Of a stretch of DNA of 36,873 bases, positions 11,314-29,064 are shown one piece after another. The translations under genes and the position numbers were made by a program. Position 1 is the first letter of the stretch, and each line of letters starts with the position of its first letter. This DNA comes from Hyphomicrobiales bacterium. Its GTDB lineage: Bacteria > Pseudomonadota > Alphaproteobacteria > Rhizobiales > Methyloligellaceae. The stretch spans positions 1-36,873 of the forward strand of contig JAJFHO010000186.1 in assembly GCA_021775575.1 (NCBI GenBank), in the 5' to 3' direction. The notes beneath the pieces were generated by a model. The model saw nothing but the letters and a program-made list of their open reading frames with translations. It ran no database searches and had not been told where the DNA came from.

Positions 11314-11880
11314 ATGATCCAGGCGACCGAAATCCTGCAGGATCTCGACCCGGTCCGTTCCGCTGTTGCCGGGGTCGATGCGCTCCTGAAAGAACATGGC
11401 CAGCTTTCCGTCACCTCACGGCCCGGCGCCGCTGAACCGCTTCTCGATGCCCTGGGCTGGCTGCCGGAAGATGCGCGGGAGGCCGACTATTCAGTCGTCA
11501 ATGAGGAATTCAGGGGTGGCGCCATCGAGGAATTGTTGCGCAAGCTCCCGTTTCGCCATGGCCGTGTCCGGCTGATGCGGCTTGCGCCGAAATCCTGCCT
11601 TTCAATCCACAAGGATTCGACCCGGCGTTACCATTACGCCGTTAGAACCTCGCCGGATTGCTATCTGGTGGAGATGAATGCGACAAGCGGCATCTTCCAT
11701 CACATTCCGGCCGACGGGCGGCTTTACGAGATGGACGCGCGGCGCACGCATACGGCAATCAATGCCGGCCGCGAAGGCCGGGTCCATATCGTCATCTGCA
11801 ACGCGGACGAAACCGACGCGCTGCAAGCGGACGCCGTCGGGCGTGTTCGCGGCCTTGCGCCGGCGGAGGGTTCGGCATGA
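11314..11880 (+). CDS. Aspartyl/asparaginyl beta-hydroxylase-like Fe(II)/2OG oxygenase
   Basis: HxD...H...R pattern: RLAPKSCLSIHKDSTRRYHYAVRTSPDCYL ... RRTHTAINAGREGRVHIVICNAD. AGGGGGGAGGA upstream. Confidence 0.72.
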   Translation: MIQATEILQDLDPVRSAVAGVDALLKEHGQLSVTSRPGAAEPLLDALGWLPEDAREADYSVVNEEFRGGAIEELLRKLPFRHGRVRLMRLAPKSCLSIHKDSTRRYHYAVRTSPDCYLVEMNATSGIFHHIPADGRLYEMDARRTHTAINAGREGRVHIVICNADETDALQADAVGRVRGLAPAEGSA

Positions 11881-11968
11881 CCGGATGCGGGACGAATGCC
11901 CGCTCGCTGCTACGTCGAGGCCCCCGGGTCCGCAACCGCCATGCCGCAGCAGGCCGCCAAGGATGAGC

Positions 11969-13915
11969 ATGGCGGCGGGCAATCTCACCAGGAGACCGTC
12001 GCGCAAGCGCGCCCCCCCGGCCGTGCCGAAAGATAACCTTGTTACGGTTCGCAACCTGCGTATCGCTTTTCAGGAGCACGACCAGGATGTCGAGGTCGTC
12101 AAAGGCGTCTCCTTCCGCATCGAGGCGGGCTCGACAGTCGCGCTGGTCGGAGAATCCGGCGCCGGAAAGTCGGTAATCGGTCAGTCGATCATGGGCATCC
12201 TGCCCAAGATTGCGAGAGTCACGGCCGGTGAAATTCTGTTTGCCGATGCCAAGACGGGCGAGGTGACGGACCTCGCCCAGGTCGATCAGGATTCCAAGCA
12301 GTATCAGCAAATCCGCGGCGGGCGGATTTCGGTGATCTTCCAGGAACCTATGACATCGCTCTCGGCCTATCATACGATCGGCGATCAGATATCCGAGGCC
12401 CTGTTCCTGCATCGCGACGTAACGCACAGCGAGGGTATGGACCTTGTTGTCGAGATGCTCACGCTGTGCGGTTTCCCCGACCCTTCCAAAGCGGTCAAAC
12501 GCTATCCCTTCGAGCTGTCGGGCGGTCTCCGGCAACGGGCCATGATCGCCATGGCGCTGGTCTGCCGTCCGGCCCTGCTGATCGCGGATGAACCGACGAC
12601 CGCGCTCGATGTATCGGTTCAAGCCCAGATTCTAAAGCTCATCAAGGATCTGCAGGCCAAGCTCGGGATGGCCGTCCTGATCATCACCCACGATCTTGGC
12701 GTCGTCGCCAATATGGCCGACGAGGTGATCGTTCTGTTCCACGGTAAGATCATGGAAAGCGGAACGATCAACGACATCTACACCAAACCCAAACACGCCT
12801 ATCTGAAGGGATTGTTCGGCGCTGTGCCGCATTTCGACATGAAGCCGGGCGAGCGGTTGATTTCACCGGCCGATTTGACGCTCGTTTCCCCAATGCCGGA
12901 AGACAATGCCGCCAAGGAAAAAGAGGAAGCAAAGAGGCCCGCGCGCGCCCTGCTGGAAGTTCGCAACCTGACCAAGGAGTTTGTCGCGCGCAAAGGCGGG
13001 TTTTTCGGAGCGTCAACCGAAAACAAGGTCGTCGCGGTTGACGATGTCAGCTTCGAGATTCGGGAGCATGAATGCCTTGGCCTGGTGGGCGAATCGGGTT
13101 GCGGCAAGACCACGCTGTCGAAAATGATCATGCGCGCGCTGGCGCCGACATCGGGAGAAATACTGGTTCACCGCAAAAGCGGCACGGTCGATCTGGCCCG
13201 GAACCGGGACCATGGCGGAGAACTCAATCAGGCCATCCAGATGGTTTTTCAAGACCCTTTCGGGTCGCTCAACCCCCGCATGACCGTTTTCGATATCATC
13301 CGCGAACCCCTGGTGATCCACCGGATCGGCGACCGCGCCGACCATGCCGTGAAAGTGCAGGAATTGATGCGGCTCGTGCGGCTCGATCCGCGCTTTCTGA
13401 CCCGTTACCCGCACAGCTTCTCCGGTGGCCAGCGCCAGCGGATCGGTCTGGCGCGTTCGCTCGCCCTCGACCCCGAACTGCTCATTCTCGACGAACCGGT
13501 TTCCGCCCTCGACGTGTCGATACAGGCGCAGATCCTCAATCTGCTGAAGGACATGCAATCCGAGCTCGGGCTGACCTATCTTTTCATTTCCCACAATCTT
13601 GCGGTGGTCGATTATGTGGCCGACCGCATCATCGTCATGTGCCAGGGACGCATCGTGGAGTCGGCGCCGCGCGAGGTTCTGTTCCGCAATCCCGTCCACC
13701 ATTACACGCGCGCGCTTATTTCCGCCGTCCCCTATGCCGAACTCGACCGGCCGCTCGATTTGAGCGCGCTGCAGGCCGGCGACGGCACGGCCCCGTCGGC
13801 ATGGCCCCCTCCATTCACTTTCGCGCCCGGACAGAAGATGGAATTTCTCGATCTGGGCGAGGAACATAAAGTACTTGTCGCGGTCGGAGCGACGAAGAAG
13901 GACCTTCCCAAATGA
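11969..13915 (+). CDS. Fused double-NBD peptide/oligopeptide ABC importer ATPase (DppD-DppF / YejF type)
   Basis: Two complete ATPase domains: GESGAGKS...LSGGLRQR...[13 protein letters not shown] and GESGCGKT...FSGGQRQR...[13 protein letters not shown]. Start near 11963/11969 (AAGGA upstream). Confidence 0.9.
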
Positions 13916-15846
13916 GCCGGTTTCCATGGGTGATTGCGGTCCTTCTGGCTTTCATTTTGCACGCAAGCCCGGCCTGGCCCGCCGAGCTGAAGGAACCGCC
14001 CTATCTGCAGAGCTTGATCGCTTCGGGCGCCTTGCCGCCGGTGGCCGAACGCCTTCCCCAAGACGCCATGGTCGTCGACATGACCAGCGAGGGAAAAATG
14101 CCGGGCCGCCACGGCGGCGCTTTAAAAATCTTGCTCGGCAAGCAAAAAGATACGCGCATGATCACCGTCTACAGCTATGCGCGTCTGATCGGCTACACGC
14201 CCGACTTCGAACTGAAACCGGACATCTTGAAGAAAATCGATGTTGAGGAGGGGCGCATTTTCACCTTCCACCTTCGCCGTGGCCACCGCTGGTCGGACGG
14301 GCATCCCTTCACCGCGGAGGACTTCCGCTACTATTGGGAAGACGTCGTGGGAAACAAGCAGCTTCGTCCGGGCGGGCCGCCCAAGCAGATGCGGGTCGGC
14401 AAGGAGATCGCGAAATTCGAGGTTATCGACGAAGTCACCGTGCGTTACAGCTGGTCCAAGCCCAATCCGCGCTTCCTGCCCTGGCTTGCCGGTTCCAGCC
14501 CACCGGCGATCTACCGGCCCGCGCACTATCTCAAACAGTTCCATGACAAGTATGGCGATGCGGCGGAAATCCGCAAACGCGTCGAGAGCGAGGGCCGGCG
14601 CAACTGGGCGGATGTGCATTTCAGCCGCGATCGGCCATACCGCGCCGACAATCCCGACCGGCCAATGCTGGAGCCGTGGGTGAACGTCACCGCGCCGCCG
14701 TCGCAGCGCTTCGTGTTCCAGCGCAACCCCTATTACTACCGTATCGATGAAAATGGCCGGCAGTTGCCCTATTTGGACGAAGTCATGGTTACGCTGGGTT
14801 CGGTCGCCATGGTGCCGGCCAGAACCGGCTCAGGAGAAACCAATCTGCAGGCCCGCTATCTGCGCTTTGAACATTACACCTTCCTCAAGCAGGCCGAGCA
14901 GCGCAACAATATGTCCGTGCGCCTCTGGCAGATTCTGAAGTCGTCGCATAAGGCGATCTACCCCAACATGAACACCGCCGACCCGGTCTGGCGGAAACTC
15001 ATGCACGACGTCCGGTTCCGCCGCGCCCTGTCGCTTGGCGTCAACCGGCATGAGATCAATCAGGTGATCTATTACGGTCTTGCGAATGAGAGCAACAATA
15101 CGGTTTTCCCCGCCAGTCCTCTGTACAGGCCCGAATATCAGTATAACTGGGCGAAGTTCGACATTGAGCAGGCCAACGCGCTGCTCGACGAGATCGGTCT
15201 CACCAAACGCGACGAAGAAGGAACGCGATTGCTCCCCGACGGACGGCCCGCGCATATGATCATAGATCTGGCCGGCGAGAGCACCGAGGAAAGCGATATT
15301 CTCGAACTGGTCCGCGAAAGCTGGGGGCAGATCGGCCTTAAGCTGTTCCCGCGCCCGTCACAGCGCGAAGTGTTCAGGAGCAGGGTTTTCTCCGGCGAAG
15401 CGCTGATGTCGATGTGGGCGGGCTTCGGAAATGGCCGCTCCACGGCGCAAATGAGTCCTTACGCCTTCACGCCGACGCAGCAATATCAGTATCAGTGGCC
15501 GCAATGGGGCCTTTATGTTTCCACCCGCGGCAAGAAAGGGCAGAAGCCGGAGCTTCGCGAGGTCAACCGTCTGATCGAGCTCAACAAGGAATGGCTCGGC
15601 TCTGTCGGCGAAGAAGATCAGACGCGCATCTGGCGGGAAATCCTTCAGATCAACGCCGATCAGGTGTTCACCATCGGTACGGTCAACGCGACGTTGCAGC
15701 CAATCGTCGTATCCAACGACATGCAGAATGTACCTGAGAAGGGATTTTACAACTGGGACCCGGGCGCCTATTTCGGCATTTACAAACCTGACACTTTCTG
15801 GATCAAGCAGATCGAGAAAAGCGCTGCGGTTGCGGCGGACAAATAA
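13912..15846 (+). CDS. Extracellular solute-binding protein family 5 (peptide ABC importer)
   Basis: Signal peptide [52 protein letters not shown] and DVRFRRALSLGVNRHEINQVIYYGLA are family 5 hallmarks. ATGA overlap with the upstream ATPase. Confidence 0.9.
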   Translation: MSRFPWVIAVLLAFILHASPAWPAELKEPPYLQSLIASGALPPVAERLPQDAMVVDMTSEGKMPGRHGGALKILLGKQKDTRMITVYSYARLIGYTPDFELKPDILKKIDVEEGRIFTFHLRRGHRWSDGHPFTAEDFRYYWEDVVGNKQLRPGGPPKQMRVGKEIAKFEVIDEVTVRYSWSKPNPRFLPWLAGSSPPAIYRPAHYLKQFHDKYGDAAEIRKRVESEGRRNWADVHFSRDRPYRADNPDRPMLEPWVNVTAPPSQRFVFQRNPYYYRIDENGRQLPYLDEVMVTLGSVAMVPARTGSGETNLQARYLRFEHYTFLKQAEQRNNMSVRLWQILKSSHKAIYPNMNTADPVWRKLMHDVRFRRALSLGVNRHEINQVIYYGLANESNNTVFPASPLYRPEYQYNWAKFDIEQANALLDEIGLTKRDEEGTRLLPDGRPAHMIIDLAGESTEESDILELVRESWGQIGLKLFPRPSQREVFRSRVFSGEALMSMWAGFGNGRSTAQMSPYAFTPTQQYQYQWPQWGLYVSTRGKKGQKPELREVNRLIELNKEWLGSVGEEDQTRIWREILQINADQVFTIGTVNATLQPIVVSNDMQNVPEKGFYNWDPGAYFGIYKPDTFWIKQIEKSAAVAADK

Positions 15847-15916
15847 GCTTGAACCGGGGGAGAATCGGGGCAGTGAGCGGCAAGAATCGCAATATCGGTG
15901 AAGCCGGAGGCAAGCC

Positions 15917-16915
15917 ATGATCGGTTTTGTCTTGCGCCGCATTCTTTTGATGATTCCAACCCTCTTGGTGATTTCAATGATCGTTTTCACGATCATTGAA
16001 TTACCGCCCGGCGACTATCTGGAAAGCTATGTTGCGGAGCTGCAGGCGCGGGGCGAAACGGTCAACGAAGACGAGATCAATTTTCTCCGCGAGCAATATG
16101 GCTTCGGCCAGCCCGTCGTCCAGCGCTATGTCGACTGGGTCTGGGGGATGCTGCATGGGGATTTCGGATATTCGTTTGAATACCGGTTGCCGGTTTCCGA
16201 TATCGTTGGCGACCGTATCCTCCTGACCATCGTGGTCTCGCTGGCGACCATTATATTTACCTGGCTCGTGGCGTTTCCAATCGGCATCTACTCGGCCACG
16301 CATCACTATAGCTGGGGCGATTACGGTCTGACCTTCCTCGGCCTGCTTGGACTGGCGACGCCCAACTTTCTGCTCGCCCTTGTCCTGCTCTATCTCGCAA
16401 ATGTCTGGTTCGGAACCTCGATCGGCGGTCTCATGGAACCGAAATATCTCGACCAGGCCTGGTCCTGGGGCAAACTCGTTTCAGTGCTGGAGCATTTGTG
16501 GATTCCGGTGGTCGTCGTCGGCACCGCGGGCACCGCGGGTCTTGCCCGCCGGCTGCGCGCCAACCTGCTGGACGAGTTGCAGAAACAATATGTCACAACC
16601 GCCAAGGCGAAGGGGTTGTCCCCGGCCAAGGTGCTCATCAAATATCCGCTGCGCGCGGCGATGAACTTCTTTGTTTCGGACATCGGTCATCTGCTGCCGG
16701 CGATCATTTCCGGCGCCGAGCTGACCGCGATCGTGCTTTCGCTGCCGACGACGGGACCGGTGCTGATCTCTGCCCTGCAGAGCCAGGACATGTATCTGGC
16801 CGGGTCCTTTCTGATGTTCCTGTCAACGCTGACGGTCGTCGGCGTTCTGGTGTCCGACCTGGCGCTCGCGGTCCTGGACCCCCGGATTCGTCTTGAAGGG
16901 GGGCAAAGCCGGTGA
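15917..16915 (+). CDS. Peptide ABC importer permease (DppB/YejB type)
   Basis: MIGFVLRRILLMIPTLLVISMIVFTIIELPPGD...; YVTTAKAKGLSPAKVLIKYPLRAAMN permease EAA-like loop. Confidence 0.92.
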   Translation: MIGFVLRRILLMIPTLLVISMIVFTIIELPPGDYLESYVAELQARGETVNEDEINFLREQYGFGQPVVQRYVDWVWGMLHGDFGYSFEYRLPVSDIVGDRILLTIVVSLATIIFTWLVAFPIGIYSATHHYSWGDYGLTFLGLLGLATPNFLLALVLLYLANVWFGTSIGGLMEPKYLDQAWSWGKLVSVLEHLWIPVVVVGTAGTAGLARRLRANLLDELQKQYVTTAKAKGLSPAKVLIKYPLRAAMNFFVSDIGHLLPAIISGAELTAIVLSLPTTGPVLISALQSQDMYLAGSFLMFLSTLTVVGVLVSDLALAVLDPRIRLEGGQSR

Positions 16916-18090
16916 AACCGCGCCAGATACCCAAACCCGGGCAGAAATTGCCGCATTACACCTCCCGGGAACCATTCGAGCATGCCGCCGCTGCCCGTCT
17001 GACGCCCGAACAGGAGCGCTACTATCTCGCCTCGCAATGGCAGTTGATGTGGTGGCGGTTCAAGCGGCACCGGCTCGCCGTGATCTCCGCAGTCTTCCTG
17101 CTGCTGGCTTACGGCTCGATTTTTATTACCGAGTTCCTGTCGCCTTACAATCTGCATTCCCGGCATGTCGACCAGATCTACATGCCGCCGCAAAGCGTCC
17201 ATCTGTTACACGACGGCTCCTTTATCGGCCCGTTCGTTTACGGAACGCATTACGAGCTCGATATGCAGAATTTGCGGCGCGTCTATACCGAGGACAAGTC
17301 GAAGATTCACCGTCTCCAATTCTTCTGTTCCGCCGACAGCTACAAATTCTGGGGGCTGATTGAGGCCGACAACCACCTGTTCTGCGTCGAGGATGGCGGT
17401 ACGATATTTCTGCTCGGCACCGACCGTCTGGGACGCGATATCCTGTCGCGCCTTTTATCCGGCGGCCGGATTTCGCTGACCATCGGTCTCATCGGCATTG
17501 TCCTGAGTTTCACCATGGCGATCACGATCGGCGGCCTTGCGGGCTATTACGGCGGGATTGTCGACCTCTTCGTTCAGAGGGTCATCGAAATCCTCCAGAG
17601 TTTCCCGCAAATTCCGCTATGGATGGCGCTGGCCGCGATCCTGCCGGTCACCTGGTCGCCGCTGCTGATCTATTTCGGCATAACCGTCATTCTCGCCCTG
17701 CTCGACTGGACCGGACTTGCGCGCGCAGTGCGTTCCAAGCTGCTGGCGCTGCGCGAGGAGGATTATTGCATGGCGGCCCGGGTCATGGGCGCCAGTCCCA
17801 ACCGCGTCATATTCCGCCATCTTATGCCCGGCGTCATGAGCCACCTGATCGCGTCGGCGACATTGTCGATCCCGAATATGATCCTCGGCGAAACCGCGCT
17901 GAGCTTCCTGGGGCTCGGCCTCAGGCCGCCAATCACAAGCTGGGGCGTTTTGCTGAACGAGGCACAGAATATCAATGTGGTCGCGTTGTACCCCTGGCTC
18001 ATTTTTCCAGTGGTTCCGGTGATCCTTGTGATCCTCGCCTTCAATTTCGTCGGCGACGGGATGCGCGACGCCGCCGATCCCTACAAGTAG
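16912..18090 (+). CDS. Peptide ABC importer permease (DppC/YejE type)
   Basis: GTG start overlapping the upstream stop; WWRFKRHRLAVISAVFLLL; GTDRLGRDILSRLLSGGRISLTIGL; DYCMAARVMGASPNRVIFRHLMPGVMS. Confidence 0.92.
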   Translation: MKPRQIPKPGQKLPHYTSREPFEHAAAARLTPEQERYYLASQWQLMWWRFKRHRLAVISAVFLLLAYGSIFITEFLSPYNLHSRHVDQIYMPPQSVHLLHDGSFIGPFVYGTHYELDMQNLRRVYTEDKSKIHRLQFFCSADSYKFWGLIEADNHLFCVEDGGTIFLLGTDRLGRDILSRLLSGGRISLTIGLIGIVLSFTMAITIGGLAGYYGGIVDLFVQRVIEILQSFPQIPLWMALAAILPVTWSPLLIYFGITVILALLDWTGLARAVRSKLLALREEDYCMAARVMGASPNRVIFRHLMPGVMSHLIASATLSIPNMILGETALSFLGLGLRPPITSWGVLLNEAQNINVVALYPWLIFPVVPVILVILAFNFVGDGMRDAADPYK

Positions 18091-18098
18091 CGGCGAAT

Positions 18099-18869
18099 AT
18101 GAGCGACCGGAAGGCCATGTGCTACGTCGACAGGTTCGATAACGCGACGATTGAGCATCACGGGCCGTTCCTGACGCCTCCAGGCGCACCGCGCTCCAAC
18201 TGGCAGGTCGTGCAGCCCGCCGGCGAAAACCCTTATCTGGAGCTCACCGTCTGGCATGGGCTCAACGCCATGCATCCCGTCAACGGTCTCTCCAACGAGC
18301 GCAGCGAATATATAACGCCTTACGATACCACCGCGATTGAGGGCCGGACCTTTCACTATGGCTTCCGGGTCCGCTATCCCGGCTACCGGAAGATCAACTC
18401 CCGGCACATGCTGACCCAGTTCAAGGTGAATATGCGCGACGGCGTAAACCCCTCGCCGATTGTCGGCATCTATCTGGAGACCGGCGGCGCACGGCATCTG
18501 GAGAAGATCAAGGTCTGCCACGCCTATGACTATGCGACACGCAAATGCATCTGCGAGAACCACCTCATTGAGGAAGACAGCGAGCATTTTCCGCTGCTGC
18601 CGCCCGATGAGTGGATAACCCTGAAGCTGTCGATTTACGTCAGCAAGGGAGATGGCGGCTGGATCAGGATCAGCAAAAACGGGACTCTCGTGTGGGAGTA
18701 TAACGGTCCGACAAACTACTGGAACACGACATTCGAGAAATTCACGATCCGCTTCGGTCTCTACCGCGACAGTGGTCCCGAAGGGTCGCCCCACGCGGAC
18801 GCCGTCGCCCATTTCCGCGACTTCGCCTTTTCAACCGACGAAGCGTTTGTCGACGAGATATTGGGATAG
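18099..18869 (+). CDS. Heparin lyase I-like / polysaccharide lyase-like concanavalin A fold protein, no obvious signal peptide
   Basis: FHYGFRVRYPGYR...LTQFKV...EWITLKLSIYVSKGDGGWIRISKNGTLVWEYNGPTNYWNTTFEKFTIRFGLYRDSG resembles the PF14099 pattern (GW...NG..V....GP...FK.GIYR). Confidence 0.6.
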   Translation: MSDRKAMCYVDRFDNATIEHHGPFLTPPGAPRSNWQVVQPAGENPYLELTVWHGLNAMHPVNGLSNERSEYITPYDTTAIEGRTFHYGFRVRYPGYRKINSRHMLTQFKVNMRDGVNPSPIVGIYLETGGARHLEKIKVCHAYDYATRKCICENHLIEEDSEHFPLLPPDEWITLKLSIYVSKGDGGWIRISKNGTLVWEYNGPTNYWNTTFEKFTIRFGLYRDSGPEGSPHADAVAHFRDFAFSTDEAFVDEILG

Positions 18870-20373: not shown

Positions 20374-21588
20374 ATGAGCGAGCGGCTCGACGGCGCGCGT
20401 ATGTTGATTTACAGCCACGATACATTTGGCCTCGGTCATTTGCGTCGGTGCCAGGCGATCGCCCACGCGCTGGTCGAGCGCTACAAGGGCCTTTCCATCA
20501 TCATTCTGTCGGGCTCCCCGATCATCGGCAGTTTCGACTTCCGGGCCCGTGTGGATTTCGTCCGTGTGCCGGGCGTAATCAAACTCTACAATGGCGAATA
20601 TACCTCGCTGGCGCTGCATATCGATATTCAGAGCACCCTGGCGATCCGCGCCTCGATCATCAGGCATACAGCGGAGGTCTTCCACCCCAATCTGTTCCTT
20701 GTCGACAAGGAACCGCTCGGTCTGCGTGGCGAAATCACCGAGACCCTGCACCTGCTCAAGGGCATGGGAACGAAACTGGTGCTTGGCCTGCGCGATATCA
20801 TGGACGAGCCGAAATTGCTGCGCCGGGAATGGGAATCGCGCCAGCTTATGCCCGCGCTGGCCGGCCTCTATGACGAAATCTGGGTCTATGGCCTGCAGGA
20901 GGTCTGGAATCCCCTGACCGATCTGGAGATACCGCAGCAGGTTACCGACAAGATGCGCTACACGGGTTATCTCAAACGCTCGCTACCGCAACGCGTCAAG
21001 CGCACGCCGGCCGCGGAAGTGAAAGAGCCCTATATTCTCGTGACCGGCGGCGGCGGCGGCGACGGACATGACCTGATCGACTGGGTGCTCCGGGCCTATG
21101 AATCCGATCCCACCCTGCCTTATGCGCCTCTGTTCGTCCTCGGCCCCTTCATGAACGCCGATCAGCAGGAAGAGCTGACAGGGCGGATCGAGCAATTGCC
21201 GGGCGCCAACACCATCACCTTCGACAGCCATGTCGAATTCCTGATGGCGGAGGCAGCCGGCGTCATTGCGATGGGCGGCTACAATACCTTTTGCGAGATC
21301 CTGTCCTTCGACAAGAAGGCGATTATCGTGCCACGCTGCAAGCCTCGGCAAGAGCAGCTTATCCGGGCGCAGCAGGCCAGCCGGCTTGGACTGGTGCGGA
21401 TGATCGATCCGGAAAGAATAAAGGATCCATCGGTCATGGCGACGGCAATCCGCGAGCTTCCCAATCAGCCCAGGCCATCCTCGACGCTTCTGCCGGGGAT
21501 GCTTGACGGATTGGACAAGGTCGCCAACCTGGCGCGGCCTCACCTTCTCGGCGTCGAAGAGAAGCAGGCCGTCGTCGAAGCGGTTTAG
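20374..21588 (+). CDS. GT28/MurG-like predicted glycosyltransferase (COG4671 type)
   Basis: RMLIYSHDTFGLGHLRRCQAIAHALVE; C-terminal VTGGGGGDGHDLID...VIAMGGYNTFCEILSFDKKAIIVPRCKPRQEQLIRAQ. Confidence 0.8.
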   Translation: MSERLDGARMLIYSHDTFGLGHLRRCQAIAHALVERYKGLSIIILSGSPIIGSFDFRARVDFVRVPGVIKLYNGEYTSLALHIDIQSTLAIRASIIRHTAEVFHPNLFLVDKEPLGLRGEITETLHLLKGMGTKLVLGLRDIMDEPKLLRREWESRQLMPALAGLYDEIWVYGLQEVWNPLTDLEIPQQVTDKMRYTGYLKRSLPQRVKRTPAAEVKEPYILVTGGGGGDGHDLIDWVLRAYESDPTLPYAPLFVLGPFMNADQQEELTGRIEQLPGANTITFDSHVEFLMAEAAGVIAMGGYNTFCEILSFDKKAIIVPRCKPRQEQLIRAQQASRLGLVRMIDPERIKDPSVMATAIRELPNQPRPSSTLLPGMLDGLDKVANLARPHLLGVEEKQAVVEAV

Positions 21589-21602
21589 GAGCGCGCCTGC
21601 CG

Positions 21603-22859
21603 GTGACCGGCACTGTCGCATTCATCCTCAAGGGGTATCCGCGCCTCTCCGAAACCTTCATCGCGCAGGAAATTCACGGTCTCGAACAACTCGGTCTCGA
21701 TATCCATATCTATTCCCTGCGTCCGCCCCGCGAGCCCGAGAGACATCCTGTCCACGCCCAGATTCGCGCGGACGTCACCTATTTGCCGGAACGCCTGCGC
21801 GATGATCTCCCGCGCGTCTGGCGCGCGCTCAGGCAGGCGACAAGCCGCCCGGGATTCAAGAAGGCGCTGAGACGCTGGATCTCCGATATGCTGCGCGCAC
21901 CCTCTCCCGACCGTGCACGCCGCTTTGGCCAGGCGCTGGTGCTGGCCGGCGAAATCACGCCGGAAACCACGCACCTGCACGCCCATTTTCTGCACACGCC
22001 TTCCTCAGTCGCCCGATACGCGGCCGCGCTCACCGGCCTGCCCTGGAGCTGCTCGGCGCATGCGCGCGATATCTGGACGATCGGCGATTGGGAAAAGCGC
22101 GCCAAACTCGGCGAGATGGACTGGCTCGTGACCTGTACGCGGACGGGCTGCGCTCATTTGGCGGAACTCACGCCAACACCGGCAAAGGTCGAGCTGGTCT
22201 ATCACGGATTGGATTTGGAGCGCTTCTCTCCTCCGGCGGCGCGGGCGCCAGCGCGCGACGGCACGAAAGCGAGTGATCCCGTCCGGCTGCTCTCGGTCGG
22301 GCGGGCGGTGGAGAAAAAAGGTTTCGACCTTTTGCTGAAGGCGTTCGCTTCCCTCGACAAAGGCACCCATTGGCGCTGGGTCCATATCGGCGATGGGAGC
22401 CTGATCGATCCGCTGAAAGGTCAGGCGCGCAGATCGGGTCTGGAAGAGCGGATCACATGGCTTGGCGCGTGCCCGCAAGCTCAGGTGATCGATCAATATG
22501 CCCGTGCGGATTTGTTCATTCTGCCCTCCCGCATAGCCTCGGACGGTGACCGCGACGGACTTCCCAACGTTCTGGTCGAGGCGCAATCGCAGGGCCTGTG
22601 CTGCCTGTCGACCCGCCTGCCCGCGATATCGGAACTGATCGACGACGGCATGACGGGGCTCCTTGTGCCGGCGGACGAGGCCAGCGCCCTCACCGCGGCA
22701 CTGGCGCAATTGATCGGCGATCCGGATTTGCGCCGGCGGCTTGGCGAAGCGGGCCTGAAAAAAGTGCGCCGCGACTTCTCTCACCACACCGGTCTGGCCA
22801 AGCTCGCCCGGCGCTTCGGCCTGCCGCCCACCGACCAAAGCACACGGCCGGCGGCATGA
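21603..22859 (+). CDS. GT4-family glycosyltransferase
   Basis: FILKGYPRLSETFIAQEIHGLEQLGLDIHIYSLR; LLSVGRAVEKKGFDLLLKAFA; DLFILPSRIASDGDRDGLPNVLVEAQSQGL. Confidence 0.9.
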   Translation: MTGTVAFILKGYPRLSETFIAQEIHGLEQLGLDIHIYSLRPPREPERHPVHAQIRADVTYLPERLRDDLPRVWRALRQATSRPGFKKALRRWISDMLRAPSPDRARRFGQALVLAGEITPETTHLHAHFLHTPSSVARYAAALTGLPWSCSAHARDIWTIGDWEKRAKLGEMDWLVTCTRTGCAHLAELTPTPAKVELVYHGLDLERFSPPAARAPARDGTKASDPVRLLSVGRAVEKKGFDLLLKAFASLDKGTHWRWVHIGDGSLIDPLKGQARRSGLEERITWLGACPQAQVIDQYARADLFILPSRIASDGDRDGLPNVLVEAQSQGLCCLSTRLPAISELIDDGMTGLLVPADEASALTAALAQLIGDPDLRRRLGEAGLKKVRRDFSHHTGLAKLARRFGLPPTDQSTRPAA

Positions 22860-24022
22860 CCCGGCTTCTGATCCATGTCCAGTATCTCAAGGGAATTGGC
22901 CACCTGCAGCGCGCGAAGCTGATTGCCGAGGCCGCCGCCGCGCGGGGGCTTGATGTGCATATCGCCTCCGGCGGCCTGCCGGTTGCGGATTTCCGTCCCG
23001 GGGGCGCCGCGGTCCACCAGCTCCCGGCGCTTCAGGCCGGCCCCGGCGGCTTCACGGATCTGCGCGACGCAGATGGGAAGCCGGTCGACGACGCCTGGCG
23101 CGCAACGAGACAGGATAAATTACTGGCCCTGTTCAGGCAGGTTCGCCCGGATATTCTGCTGGTCGAGAGCTTTCCTTTCGGCCGCCGCGCGCTGTCATAC
23201 GAACTGGTGCCCCTGCTGGAAGCCGCGCACGGGCGAAGCCCGCGTCCGGCGGTTCTGTGCTCCCTACGCGACATTCTTCAGACCAACCGCAAGCCCGGCC
23301 GGACGAAGGAAACCCTTTCGCGCCTGCGCGAGTTTTTCGACGGCGTGCTCGTCCATGGAGATCCGGACTTTGTTCCGCTGGAGGAGACATTCGCGAGAAC
23401 GCCGGAAATCGCAGGCCTGCTTCGCTACACAGGTTTCGTCGCGGCGGACAAAGAGGCCTTCGAGCCGCGCCCCGAAACGCCGCGCGGCGAAGTCATCGTC
23501 TCCACGGGCGGCGGCGCCATTGGCCCCGCGCTTCTCGACGCGGCGCTCGCCGCGCGGCCCGATACGCCGTTTCACGATACGCCCTGGCGGCTGATTGCCG
23601 GCCCGCACCTTGCGCAGAGTGACTATGAACGGCTGCTCCATACCGCGCCCGATGGCGTCGCCGTGGAGCGGTTCCGTAATGATTTCAGAGCCTTGATGGC
23701 GGCAGCGAAGCTTTCCATCTCCTATGCCGGCTATAATACGGTAACGGATCTTTTGCGCGCGCGCGTGCCAAGTGTGCTGATCACCTATGGCGGCGAAGAG
23801 GGGCGCGAGACCGAGCAGGCGATGCGCGCGGCACGGCTCAGCGGCGGCGGACTGGCAGCAACGCTGTCCGATGCGGAACTTTCGCCGGACACCCTTTTGC
23901 GGGCGATTGAGGAGGCCGATGCATGCCGGCCCGTGCCCGCATGCGATTTCGATCTGGAGGGCGCCGCCAAGTCGGCCGATATATTAGCTGGATATGATTG
24001 CGAGGCAGCGGCCGCGGGTTGA
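22856..24022 (+). CDS. Second GT28/MurG-like predicted glycosyltransferase (COG4671 type)
   Basis: MTRLLIHVQYLKGIGHLQRAKLIAEAAAARGLDVHIASGG; STGGGAIGPALLDAAL; AAKLSISYAGYNTVTDLLRARVPSVLITYGGEEGRETEQAMRA. ATGA overlap with the upstream GT4. Confidence 0.8.
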   Translation: MTRLLIHVQYLKGIGHLQRAKLIAEAAAARGLDVHIASGGLPVADFRPGGAAVHQLPALQAGPGGFTDLRDADGKPVDDAWRATRQDKLLALFRQVRPDILLVESFPFGRRALSYELVPLLEAAHGRSPRPAVLCSLRDILQTNRKPGRTKETLSRLREFFDGVLVHGDPDFVPLEETFARTPEIAGLLRYTGFVAADKEAFEPRPETPRGEVIVSTGGGAIGPALLDAALAARPDTPFHDTPWRLIAGPHLAQSDYERLLHTAPDGVAVERFRNDFRALMAAAKLSISYAGYNTVTDLLRARVPSVLITYGGEEGRETEQAMRAARLSGGGLAATLSDAELSPDTLLRAIEEADACRPVPACDFDLEGAAKSADILAGYDCEAAAAG

Positions 24023-25242: not shown

Positions 25243-25959
25243 CTATTTCCGCCCGATCAGCATGAAGCGGGTGTATTTCTCAAGTTCAAGCTGCCCGGCG
25301 AACAGCAGCTCGCTCATCGGCGCCTGGCGCTTGAAGGCCTCAAGGCTTTCAACGCAATTCACATGCTCGGGGATCACCACATAATTGTTCGACTGGAGAA
25401 CCAGCGTCACACCGTCCGGCAGGCGCGCATACCAATCGTCGAATGCAGCCAGATGCTCGCAGCTCGTATTGACGATGATGTCGGGTCGGGTGAGACCATC
25501 GGGCAGTGCTGAATAGTCCAGTGCGTAGATGTCGTGGCAGGCGAAGGCGAAGCGGCCTGTCTTCGCATGGGTCGCATTCAGGCTGAGTGCTACTTCCTCG
25601 CAGGAGGGATCGACATCGACAACAGTGAGTTTCTCCACCTGCAACTGCTTCTCCGCCAGCAGCATCGCGCCTAACAGGCCGTACCAGCCGGCAAGGATAT
25701 GAATTGTCCCCAGCTCAGGCCCGCAGGCGCGCGCCAGCTCCTCGACAAGCCACTTCTTGCAGGCCGTCTGCTTCTTGTTGAGGGCGATGCCGAGTGCCGA
25801 GTCCGGATAGGCGAGAACGGTGTCGCGGACATCCCGGATAAAGGGGTTCTGGTAGAGGACCGCGAGCCCGTCCAGAATGTCCTTGAAGGACTGAACTGTC
25901 GGATCGAGATCGCGTCCGACCGCTTCCGGCCAGACCGGCCACCGCTTTGTCACATCCAT
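25243..25959 (-). CDS. Class I SAM-methyltransferase-like protein with a variant motif I
   Basis: TIHILAGWYGLLGAMLLAEKQLQVEKLTVVDVDPSCEEVAL ... HDIYALDYSALPDGLTRPDIIVNTSCEHL; Rossmann-like layout with acidic VDVDP. Starts 3 nt after the stop of the 1033-aa gene. Confidence 0.6.
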   Translation of the reverse strand: MDVTKRWPVWPEAVGRDLDPTVQSFKDILDGLAVLYQNPFIRDVRDTVLAYPDSALGIALNKKQTACKKWLVEELARACGPELGTIHILAGWYGLLGAMLLAEKQLQVEKLTVVDVDPSCEEVALSLNATHAKTGRFAFACHDIYALDYSALPDGLTRPDIIVNTSCEHLAAFDDWYARLPDGVTLVLQSNNYVVIPEHVNCVESLEAFKRQAPMSELLFAGQLELEKYTRFMLIGRK

Positions 25960-25962
25960 CCC

Positions 25963-28900
25963 TCAGGCGGCCTTTTGCTGACTCATCATCGTATTGGCCA
26001 GCCGCTCGCTGGCAATACGCGCCGCATTCGCGGCAACTTTCGGGTCGTTCTCGATGATCTGCAGGAACGGCTCCTTTTCTATTTCAAGGGCGACGACCTT
26101 GGAAAAGGCCCGGGCGCCGGCGGTCCGGGGCACCGTCGCGAGCAGCGCGATCTCACCAACCGGTTCGTGCTGGCCCAGACGCGCAACCTGTTTCTCATCC
26201 GGCGTGCCATCGTCGAGCAGGATGTCAACTTCACCGGACAGGATCACATAGGCCGCATTGCCCTTATCGCCTTGACGGAACAGGGTCTCGCCCCTTTCAA
26301 AGGTGACGCGCTTGGAGCCGAATGCCAGCAGTTTCAGATTGGAGGAACGGATATCGCGGAACATCGGCACTTTCGCCAGCGCCGCCGCCTCCGCCTGGAT
26401 TGCCATGGGCGCTTCGGCCTCCTCTTCCGCTTCGGCGGCAACCGGTTCAACGACGTGCTCTGTCGCGTCGACGATACGCTTCTCGATTCGGCCGTCGCGC
26501 AGCACGAGAACCTCGTTGAAATCCTCAGCTTTGGGGGTTTCACTATCGAGCCAGATGACGCTCGTCCCGGGCAATAGTTTGAAAATATTCTGCCGGATAC
26601 GGTCGACGGTCTCGCGATCATATGCGCCAAGCGCATTGTTGATGATCAGGATTTTCGGGCGTTTGATGATGCTGCGGGCCAGCCCCAACCCCTGGCGCGC
26701 GGCCGTGGTCAAACGCTGACCGCCAATCCCGGCCTCGGAATCCATGCCGGATATGATCACGTCTTTCAGCAAATCCATTTCCGTAATCACGTCGTGCAGC
26801 AACTCGTTCACTTTCGACTCCGCATTGGCGCGCTGCTGATTGTTCCGCCCCATAATCAGGTTGCGCCGGATCGAAAGCTGGGGATTGAATTTGTCCGGCT
26901 CGTAAAATGCAATCGCATCCGCCAGCTCCTCGGGCAGCGTGTCGTGGAACAGTTTGCGGGCCTCGACGATTTTCGACTGGAACGCTTCGTCGATATGGCC
27001 CAGCCGGTGCCGCTCGACACTTATCCGCGACGTCAGGGAAATCAATTCGGCCCTGTCTTTTTTGTCCAGCGCCGCAATGCCACCGTCCTCGCCCTTGGCC
27101 AGTATTCCCGCCAGCCGGTCGACTGTCGCATTGTCGACAAAGCTGAGCCGCTCAAGCAGGCCGGATTCGGCTTCACCATCGCCAAACATGTCAACCAGAT
27201 TGCCGGCAACCTCGAATCCGATTTCCTCGAATTGCCGTTCCAGTCCCGTTTCGGCGAGGATCGACCGGATAAAGGCATTGGTGCCGAAATTCTTCGGCGC
27301 CAGCCGATCATCCATGGGCTGCCCGAACAGCAGGTTGGTTCCGATCGCCGCACTGACGTTGAAAGTGTCGAAATCATACCGGCGGATGAGCTGGCTGAGC
27401 GCCTCATCCGACTCGAGCCGGGCAACAATATGTTTGCGGGCTTCCAGCAGTTTTTCGGGCAGGTGCGGGGTCCGGGTTTCGTCCACACGCGCGTTCAGGG
27501 CATGCTGCAAGACAATCTCATCGAGCTCGACGGATCGGATAATCTTGAACCACCAGTCCTGCAATTCCTCGACACTCGAAACGCCTGCCGACTTGAAATC
27601 CGTCCAGTCCTGGTCGCGGTCGTAGGGGCTGTTGCCGGAGGCCGCGGCTTCCATCGGGTCATACTCGCCGATATTGCCGGGAATTTCGCGCATCAGCCCG
27701 TAAACCGAGTTGTAGCCGATCGAGCCTTCGAAAATATAGGTCTCCGCTCCGGCATAGCCGATTTGCGAGCCGAGAACCTTGTCGGAGACCTGCGCCAGAT
27801 TGCGGCCGCCGACAAACACCTGCCCGCTACTCGGCTGGGTCAGGCGCGTCATGATCTGGGCAAGCCGGTCGCGGCCGGTATCACCCGCGACGATCGCCAG
27901 CTTGCCGCCCGGCGGAACCTCGAACGACACCGAGTCCAGCGGTTTGCTGCCATCCTCATCCGACACCGTCAGCTTGTCGAATTTGAGTGATCCGGCGAGA
28001 GGCTCCGCCTCTCCGGTGTCAGGCTCCAATATATCTCCGTTCAACAGAGACCCCAGTTCGAAATTCTCGACCAGTTGCTGATATTTGAGCCCGGCATCGC
28101 CAACGCGCTGATAATATTTCAACAACTCCTTCCAGGGAGTCGTGAGCTGGGCGTAAGCGCCCAGCGCCGCCACCAGCTGACCGACATCCAGCCTGCCGCT
28201 GAGGATCAGGAGCCCGCCGACCGAATAGAACAGCAGCGGCGTCATCTTCAGCAGAAACACATTGAGCGCCTTCATGAAATATTTGGTTTTGAACAGCCTG
28301 TAACGGACCTTGAATATGCCATCTAGATGTTTGGAAAAATCCGCCTGACTGAACACCTCGGTATTGTTGGCGCGGATATCGCGAATGCCTGAAACCGATT
28401 CGCCGACGCGCCCGGAAAGTTTGCGGGCCCGCTCGATACGGTCGCGGTTCATCAGATTGATTTTTCGCTGCAGCTTGGGGATTACATAGGCCTGCAGCGG
28501 TATCAGCGCGATACAGGCGACACCCATCAGCCAATCCTGGACAAACATAAAGGTCAGAATGACCAGCAATGTTCCGCCCTGGTAGACAGGCAGTGCAATC
28601 GCGTCGGCGATAAAATCGCGGACCAGCTCGACTTCGCCGGCGATCATCGTCGAAAGCTCGCCCTGGGAGACGCGCTGAAAATGCGGCAGGGGAAAGCGGA
28701 GTATGCGCTGATACAGCATATAGCGAAGCCGCCGCGTCATGCGCTCCGACATCAGATTCTTGGTCGTGTTGGTCGTCATGAGGAAATAGGCGTTCGCCAT
28801 GAGCAGAAAAAACAGAACGGCGCACAGGGTCAGCAGATAGCTCGCCTGGTCGAATTCGATCCCGAAGCAGACACGCGGGAATCCGCCACCCTCGCAGAAA

Positions 28901-29064
28901 AATGGAGCTGTCGTGGAGGTGGTCTTCAGGGCATCGTTGACGATGATTTTCGGTAGCTCGAGCGTCGCATAGAGAAAGGGGAAGGAGGCGAGCGTGATCA
29001 GCGTGATCGCGAATTGCTGCCGCTTGCTGTAACGCCAGATAAAATCGTAGATACTTTTTTCCAT
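25963..29064 (-). CDS. ABC exporter-like protein with degenerate NBD, large NBD insertion and C-terminal cyclic-nucleotide-binding domain
   Basis: 1033 aa: type IV exporter-like TMD (aa ~1-330); NBD-like region with GDTGRDRL in place of Walker A, IGGQRL signature-like, ILIINNALGAYD in place of Walker B/D-loop; CNB domain VPMFRDIRSSNLKLLAFGSKRVTFERGETLFRQGDKGNAAYVILSGEVDILL...GEIALLATVPRTAGARA. Confidence 0.85.
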   Translation of the reverse strand: MEKSIYDFIWRYSKRQQFAITLITLASFPFLYATLELPKIIVNDALKTTSTTAPFFCEGGGFPRVCFGIEFDQASYLLTLCAVLFFLLMANAYFLMTTNTTKNLMSERMTRRLRYMLYQRILRFPLPHFQRVSQGELSTMIAGEVELVRDFIADAIALPVYQGGTLLVILTFMFVQDWLMGVACIALIPLQAYVIPKLQRKINLMNRDRIERARKLSGRVGESVSGIRDIRANNTEVFSQADFSKHLDGIFKVRYRLFKTKYFMKALNVFLLKMTPLLFYSVGGLLILSGRLDVGQLVAALGAYAQLTTPWKELLKYYQRVGDAGLKYQQLVENFELGSLLNGDILEPDTGEAEPLAGSLKFDKLTVSDEDGSKPLDSVSFEVPPGGKLAIVAGDTGRDRLAQIMTRLTQPSSGQVFVGGRNLAQVSDKVLGSQIGYAGAETYIFEGSIGYNSVYGLMREIPGNIGEYDPMEAAASGNSPYDRDQDWTDFKSAGVSSVEELQDWWFKIIRSVELDEIVLQHALNARVDETRTPHLPEKLLEARKHIVARLESDEALSQLIRRYDFDTFNVSAAIGTNLLFGQPMDDRLAPKNFGTNAFIRSILAETGLERQFEEIGFEVAGNLVDMFGDGEAESGLLERLSFVDNATVDRLAGILAKGEDGGIAALDKKDRAELISLTSRISVERHRLGHIDEAFQSKIVEARKLFHDTLPEELADAIAFYEPDKFNPQLSIRRNLIMGRNNQQRANAESKVNELLHDVITEMDLLKDVIISGMDSEAGIGGQRLTTAARQGLGLARSIIKRPKILIINNALGAYDRETVDRIRQNIFKLLPGTSVIWLDSETPKAEDFNEVLVLRDGRIEKRIVDATEHVVEPVAAEAEEEAEAPMAIQAEAAALAKVPMFRDIRSSNLKLLAFGSKRVTFERGETLFRQGDKGNAAYVILSGEVDILLDDGTPDEKQVARLGQHEPVGEIALLATVPRTAGARAFSKVVALEIEKEPFLQIIENDPKVAANAARIASERLANTMMSQQKAA

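Follow-up and report, generated by a model that had tools for sequence, protein, structure and literature searches.

The window analysed here, a stretch of 36,873 nucleotides from a Hyphomicrobiales bacterium (Alphaproteobacteria), encodes a large protein in which a membrane exporter of the ABC type, with a degenerate nucleotide-binding domain (NBD), is followed by a cyclic-nucleotide-binding (CNB) domain. This protein is the fused form of a two-gene unit, comprising a degenerate ABC protein and a small CNB protein, which is widespread in Alphaproteobacteria. The association of the two partners is near-obligate, and we consider it probable, at roughly 60%, that the unit is a pseudo-ABC exporter controlled by a cyclic nucleotide and serving a cluster of glycosyltransferases.

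Domain architecture of the ABC-CNB protein

The features of the gene and of its conserved neighbours are listed in Table 1. In a Pfam scan of the 1033-residue protein the exporter transmembrane family PF00664 was matched at residues 76-310 and the ABC ATPase family PF00005 at residues 376-448 only, and no match to a C39 peptidase domain was found. The AlphaFold2 model of the whole protein, built on 39 homologues, comprises six long transmembrane (TM) helices, an NBD broken by a helical insert, an unstructured linker at residues 869-884 and the CNB domain, and a Foldseek search with the whole chain returned type IV exporters, among them P-gp, TmrAB, MsbA and TAP. Pfam, model and Foldseek matches thus agree on a six-helix exporter domain (TMD) followed by an NBD, as in type IV ABC exporters. 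The insert is present also in the homologues and in two canonical paralogues from the same genome (L038 and L039, discussed below). It carries extra NLLFG-like motifs, similar to the segment that follows the Q-loop, which may have arisen by internal duplication.

Table 1. Features of the ABC-CNB fusion gene and neighbouring genes in the window
Feature	Coordinates	Strand	Evidence
ABC-CNB fusion gene, 1033 aa	25963..29064, stop codon included	-	ORF translation, Pfam, AF2 model pLDDT 84.6
TMD, residues 1-335, six TM helices, type IV exporter fold	28060..29064	-	PF00664 E 8e-29, model, PDB matches
NBD first part, residues 352-460	27685..28011	-	PF00005 partial match E 2.6e-6
Degenerate Walker A AGDTGRD	27868-27888	-	within NBD first part
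Q-loop region YAGAETYIF	27730-27756	-	within NBD first part
NBD insert, ~255 residues (461-715), helical, between Q-loop and signature	26920..27684	-	
NBD second part, residues 716-866	26467..26919	-	motif comparison; H-loop His absent
Degenerate signature GIGGQRLTTAARQ	26692-26730	-	within NBD second part
Walker B IINNALGAYD	26617-26646	-	within NBD second part
Acidic/Ala-rich flexible linker, residues 867-884	26413..26466	-	pLDDT < 50 at 869-884
CNB domain incl. N-terminal helices and C-helix, residues 885-1033	25966..26412	-	PF00027, model, PDB matches
Phosphate-binding cassette EPVGEIALLATVPRTAGARA, residues 967-986	26107..26166	-	
Cassette Glu971 codon	26152-26154	-	
Cassette Arg980 codon	26125-26127	-	
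238-aa ORF directly downstream of ABC-CNB gene	25243..25959	-	
Three glycosyltransferase genes of conserved neighbourhood	20374..24022	+	Pfam, family HMMs
GT28-like	20374-21588	+	family HMM E 1e-150
GT4/GT1	21603-22859	+	family HMM E 3e-175
GT28-like	22862-24022	+	family HMM E 3e-129

The CNB domain and its cassette

A sequence-only reading of the window had placed a CNB domain at 26035-26373 on the minus strand (residues 898-1010), and the Pfam family cNMP_binding (PF00027) indeed matched residues 920-1007 with an E-value of 6e-19 and 68.3 bits, compared with a gathering score of 27.5; a match by chance was rejected on the E-value and on conservation in the family. The position had been given correctly and the size too small, since helices of the domain begin at ~885 and a long C-helix extends to residue 1032 (25966-26412). 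Of the acidic and Ala-rich linker that had been proposed at residues 873-896, a low-confidence linker is found at 869-884, whereas the Ala-rich end forms the first helix of the CNB domain. Modelled separately from an alignment of 31 rows (pLDDT 93.7), the domain exhibits a β-roll, a short cassette helix and the C-helix. Its best matches in the PDB are CRP/GlxR, PKA-RI, PKG and SthK, in agreement with a profile search of PDB sequences (PKG, PKA-R, SthK and CRP), and sensors of ligands other than cyclic nucleotides (cNMPs), e.g. DNR, are also among the fold matches.

It is well established for PKA and CRP that a Glu of the cassette contacts the ribose and an Arg contacts the phosphate of the nucleotide. 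Both residues (Glu971 and Arg980) are intact in the window cassette, as had been noted from its sequence pattern, and when the window CNB is aligned with 30 separate homologues the Gly is kept in 31/31 rows, the Glu in 29/31 (Asp in L048, Ala in L052) and the Arg in 30/31 (His in L072). The objection foreseen in the sequence-only reading, that the homologues might consistently lack the Glu and the Arg, therefore falls away, and its impression of a competent-looking ligand domain is borne out by a well-formed fold with both residues kept across the family. Judged by these residues, the window CNB is likely to bind a cyclic nucleotide. A Thr that follows the cassette Arg (PRTA here) favours cGMP in eukaryotic kinases; this rule is unreliable in bacteria, and the ligand is therefore left as cAMP or cGMP.

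It is unlikely, in our opinion, that the CNB domain is instead a structural or protein-protein interaction module, or that it binds another small molecule such as ppGpp. There are precedents for this, as the CNB folds of FNR, NtcA, DNR and HetC respond to other ligands, and DNR is among the fold matches of the window domain. In the ABC exporter HetC of Nostoc PCC 7120 the CNB domain is needed for function in vivo, and it bound ppGpp but not cAMP (PMC10986499), so a CNB domain on an ABC exporter may bind something other than a cNMP. However, the retained Glu and Arg are the pattern expected for cNMP binders, and genes of cyclases are enriched beside the ABC-CNB pair (see below).

Pairing of the CNB domain with the ABC protein

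Homologous loci were gathered by similarity of the ABC protein alone, 40 of them from the same order and 80 from named contigs; relatives on the contigs were found with an alignment query, while a single-sequence query found none. Removal of duplicates left 115 distinct loci, of which 114 are untruncated (L073 is cut by a contig end). Whether a CNB is always present in the homologues, a question raised by the sequence-only reading, could be answered almost in the affirmative: it was found at 111 of the 114 loci, fused in 8 (L043, L044, L055, L065, L066, L068, L069 and L152) and encoded in 103 by a gene of ~155 codons directly downstream, and it is absent from L151, L157 and L171. Five of the 103 downstream CNBs were missed by the gap rule, because their stop-to-stop frames begin far upstream, yet they do carry the domain. 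Fusion to the ABC core, which that reading had seen in the window protein, is therefore real, but it is the minority state, most homologues having the separate downstream gene.

In a phylogenetic tree at least three changes between the fused and the separate state fall on well-supported (starred) branches, which indicates that fusion or its reversal occurred repeatedly; the long branches of L055 and L066 are placed with little certainty. A frameshift or misassembly as the source of the fusion was rejected, because the fused state recurs in independent genomes and on a Ruegeria plasmid (L188).

Distribution

With stringent cut-offs, homologues of the ABC family were detected in 68 of 199 genomes of the order and in 78 of 240 genomes of the class, i.e. 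in about a third. A sample of the phylum yielded 16 matches, every one of them again from Alphaproteobacteria, and a few gammaproteobacterial MAGs with homologues were found separately. Plasmid records add homologues in Rhizobium, Sinorhizobium and others. On pSymB of Sinorhizobium meliloti 2011 (L187) glycosyltransferases, the ABC gene and a CNB gene of 154 codons stand in a row, and the Ruegeria plasmid carries the fused form in a different gene setting.

Degeneration of the nucleotide-binding domain

The NBD had been described as catalytically suspect, and this description proved correct for the window protein and for the family as a whole. In the window protein the Walker A motif reads AGDTGRDRL, the signature LTTAARQ and the Walker B motif IINNALGAYD, and the H-loop lacks the His, so that of the three motifs of a catalytic NBD (GK[ST], DE and the H-loop His) none is present. 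Most of the ~120 homologues have Arg or some other residue at the position of the Walker A Lys, or lack the Ser or Thr that should come after it, and in the motif alignment none of the ~120 combines GK[ST], DE and the H-loop His. At the level of sequence the decay is family-wide and graded, as some homologues, mainly from beyond the window's order (Azospirillum, Inquilinus), retain the Walker A Lys, the catalytic Glu or the H-loop His; ATP may hence still bind in a part of the family. The distant paralogues L038 (CNB fused) and L039 (adjacent CNB gene), which possess the insert and have all three motifs intact, provide a positive control for the motif alignment. From the state of the motifs we infer that ATP hydrolysis has been lost in the ABC-CNB family, and, as the sequence-only reading proposed, a cNMP or another small ligand, rather than ATP, may be the operative input of the protein.

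The loss of all catalytic motifs, with the TMD and the insert conserved (many columns of the TMD are invariant), would also agree with a loss of transport as such, the TMD and NBD serving only as a membrane anchor or scaffold that reports the level of cNMP to the glycosyltransferases or to some other partner. We regard this as doubtful, since the TMD folds like that of an intact exporter and the invariant residues concentrate there, as would be expected if selection acts on the channel itself.

Alternatively, the degenerate NBD could be the non-catalytic half of an ATP-driven heterodimer, with a canonical half-transporter encoded elsewhere and with the CNB only tuning the activity. Heterodimers of this kind, in which one half is degenerate, have been described, and TmrAB, TM287/288 and MsRv1273c/72c are among the fold matches; moreover, the genome encodes other type IV exporters and the two canonical CNB-linked paralogues. 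Such a heterodimer is nevertheless quite improbable, as the neighbourhood survey revealed no conserved partner half-transporter beside the ABC gene, a search of 121 genomes of the order, with the L038 protein as the only query, found the L038-type paralogue in no more than 3, compared with 68 of 199 for the ABC-CNB family, and the signature, Walker A, Walker B and H-loop have all been lost, which is more than one site's worth.

Conserved neighbourhood and linkage to cyclases

Genes in the neighbourhoods were called by codon-position GC scoring; a longest-ORF caller was dropped, because it chose antisense ORFs. The recurrent layout comprises a polysaccharide-deacetylase-like gene and at least two glycosyltransferase genes on one side, then the ABC gene, the CNB gene, often a gene of the metallo-β-lactamase (MBL) fold and often a class III cyclase gene. 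At least two glycosyltransferases are encoded at 93 of the 115 distinct loci, and the three in the window belong to the set kept in most of them. A cyclase gene is present at 54 loci, with one located downstream on the same strand at 42, and an MBL gene at 43. Where a cyclase is present, a hydrolase of the MBL fold is often encoded between it and the CNB.

Within the fetched stretches a class III cyclase was encoded at 20 of 33 loci, compared with 1.24 expected from each genome's own count of cyclases (nominal P ~1.6e-22, which is an upper bound on the strength, as it assumes independent genomes and these are related). The neighbouring cyclases are members of PF00211 and exhibit at least four architectures: a six-TM type, a fusion of a 2Fe-2S ferredoxin (Fer2) with the cyclase, cluster-12, and a zinc ribbon-cyclase-AAA-TPR type. 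Most of them retain the purine-contacting Lys, which is lost in L052, L067, L070 and L079, and in most members of the six-TM type a Lys replaces the transition-state Arg. The cyclases of cluster-14 (L067, L070 and L079) lack the catalytic Lys and/or Asn and are possibly pseudo-cyclases. The MBL-fold neighbour was considered as a possible cNMP phosphodiesterase; it scores only 28 bits against NF041851 (cut-off 400), and RNase Z provides its nearest solved structures.

There is no cyclase gene in the window, and none of the nine PF00211 cyclases of its genome adjoins the ABC-CNB gene; the linkage thus comes from the relatives, which speaks against the preferred reading, and for the window protein a link to a cyclase is suggested by analogy with them. 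The genome does encode a full-length orthologue of the six-TM neighbour cyclase (L090, E 2.6e-186), a full-length orthologue of the Fer2 type (L086, E 4e-184), in which the metal-binding Asp pair, Lys, Asn and Arg are all retained, and a close homologue of the cluster-12 cyclase (L088, E 4e-96), so that a cyclic nucleotide can plausibly be made.

A cyclase and a CNB-containing effector are also the logic of the Pycsar anti-phage systems (PycC with PycTIR/PycTM), in which the cyclase signals to a membrane effector; PADLOC models of PycTIR/effectors match the CNB, models of PycC match the neighbouring cyclases, and one PDB match of the CNB is that of Pseudovibrio PycTIR. A Pycsar-like role is nonetheless highly improbable, since these PADLOC matches cover only the shared CNB and cyclase domains, the pair shows wide vertical conservation (about a third of the sampled alphaproteobacterial genomes) in a glycosyltransferase setting and in no defence island, most neighbouring cyclases keep the purine-type Lys, and a cyclase stands beside the putative effector at about half of the homologues and not in the window.

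Proposed mechanism and significance

In the reading that we prefer, that of a cyclic-nucleotide-controlled pseudo-ABC exporter, a membrane-bound class III cyclase would make a cyclic nucleotide, most likely cAMP and possibly cGMP, which would be bound in the CNB cassette, its ribose by Glu971 and its phosphate by Arg980. The C-helix and the N-terminal helices of the CNB would then move and, via the linker, act on the NBD dimer to set the state of the transmembrane part, control presumably running from the nucleotide to the transporter. As cargo, a glycan or glycolipid produced by the neighbouring glycosyltransferases is probable. We propose, as a tentative possibility, that the switch which moves the exporter domain is no longer ATP hydrolysis but the binding of cNMP to the CNB, which would make the protein a ligand-gated pseudo-ABC, i.e. 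a flippase, valve or scaffold for glycan export under the control of cAMP or cGMP.

If the preferred reading is true, these proteins would add a class to the targets of second messengers in Alphaproteobacteria. Many of these bacteria encode class III cyclases in large numbers (as many as 38 among the genomes counted) and have few known receptors. The proteins would also form a family of ABC exporters with a CNB domain in place of the lost ATPase. The homologous pair on pSymB of S. meliloti 2011 makes the system accessible in a laboratory strain.

Relationship to known systems

In the open-licence literature we found no description of a unit of a degenerate ABC protein and a CNB, an absence that is no proof of novelty, and HetC was the only relevant precedent. 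An ABC exporter with a CNB domain is thus already known; the degenerate ATPase, the near-obligate pairing in fused or adjacent form and the linkage to cyclases set the window family apart. HetC has its CNB at the N-terminus and also contains a C39 peptidase, and a catalytic residue of its ATPase is essential (PMC10986499). In the window family, by contrast, the CNB occupies the C-terminus or is a protein of its own, a peptidase is lacking, and the ATPase motifs have been lost.

A CNB protein encoded together with an ABC export system is characteristic also of TIGR03896 (cyc_nuc_ocin, bacteriocin-type transport), but the CNB scores against this model are far below the cut-off of 161 (38.5 and 31.7 bits), and genes for bacteriocin precursors or their maturation were not seen here. 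With MsbA, TAP and TmrAB the ABC-CNB protein shares the six-helix TMD and the NBD, and it differs from them by the insert, the incomplete catalytic motifs and the attached CNB. SthK, which is among the best matches of the CNB, and the prokaryotic cyclic-nucleotide-gated channels likewise carry a C-terminal CNB on a pore-like membrane domain, which here is an ABC exporter and not a tetrameric cation channel.

Other genes in the window and in its genome

The 238-residue ORF downstream of the ABC-CNB gene has no match in Pfam or NCBIfam; the closest two relatives, L043 and L044, also have it next to that gene, and it occurs in L071 as well. A radical SAM gene is also located near the ABC-CNB gene in the window. 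The stretch 11678-18866 on the plus strand holds genes of an oligopeptide-type ABC transporter, which recurs near many homologues, together with a polysaccharide lyase-like ORF (17988-18866, PF14099).

Elsewhere in the genome, a gene cluster for a Tad/Cpa-type pilus includes a paralogue in which ABC and CNB are fused and the Walker A, Walker B and H-loop motifs are intact (L175:10528-13611, minus strand, contig C237), and a second canonical ABC paralogue has a CNB gene directly downstream and an adjoining radical SAM gene (L176:2311-5836, plus strand, contig C254). CNB domains were also found fused to a peroxiredoxin-like protein (L040:1487-2458), a patatin-like protein (L041:754-2538) and a SulP/STAS transporter-like protein (L042:1801-3750).
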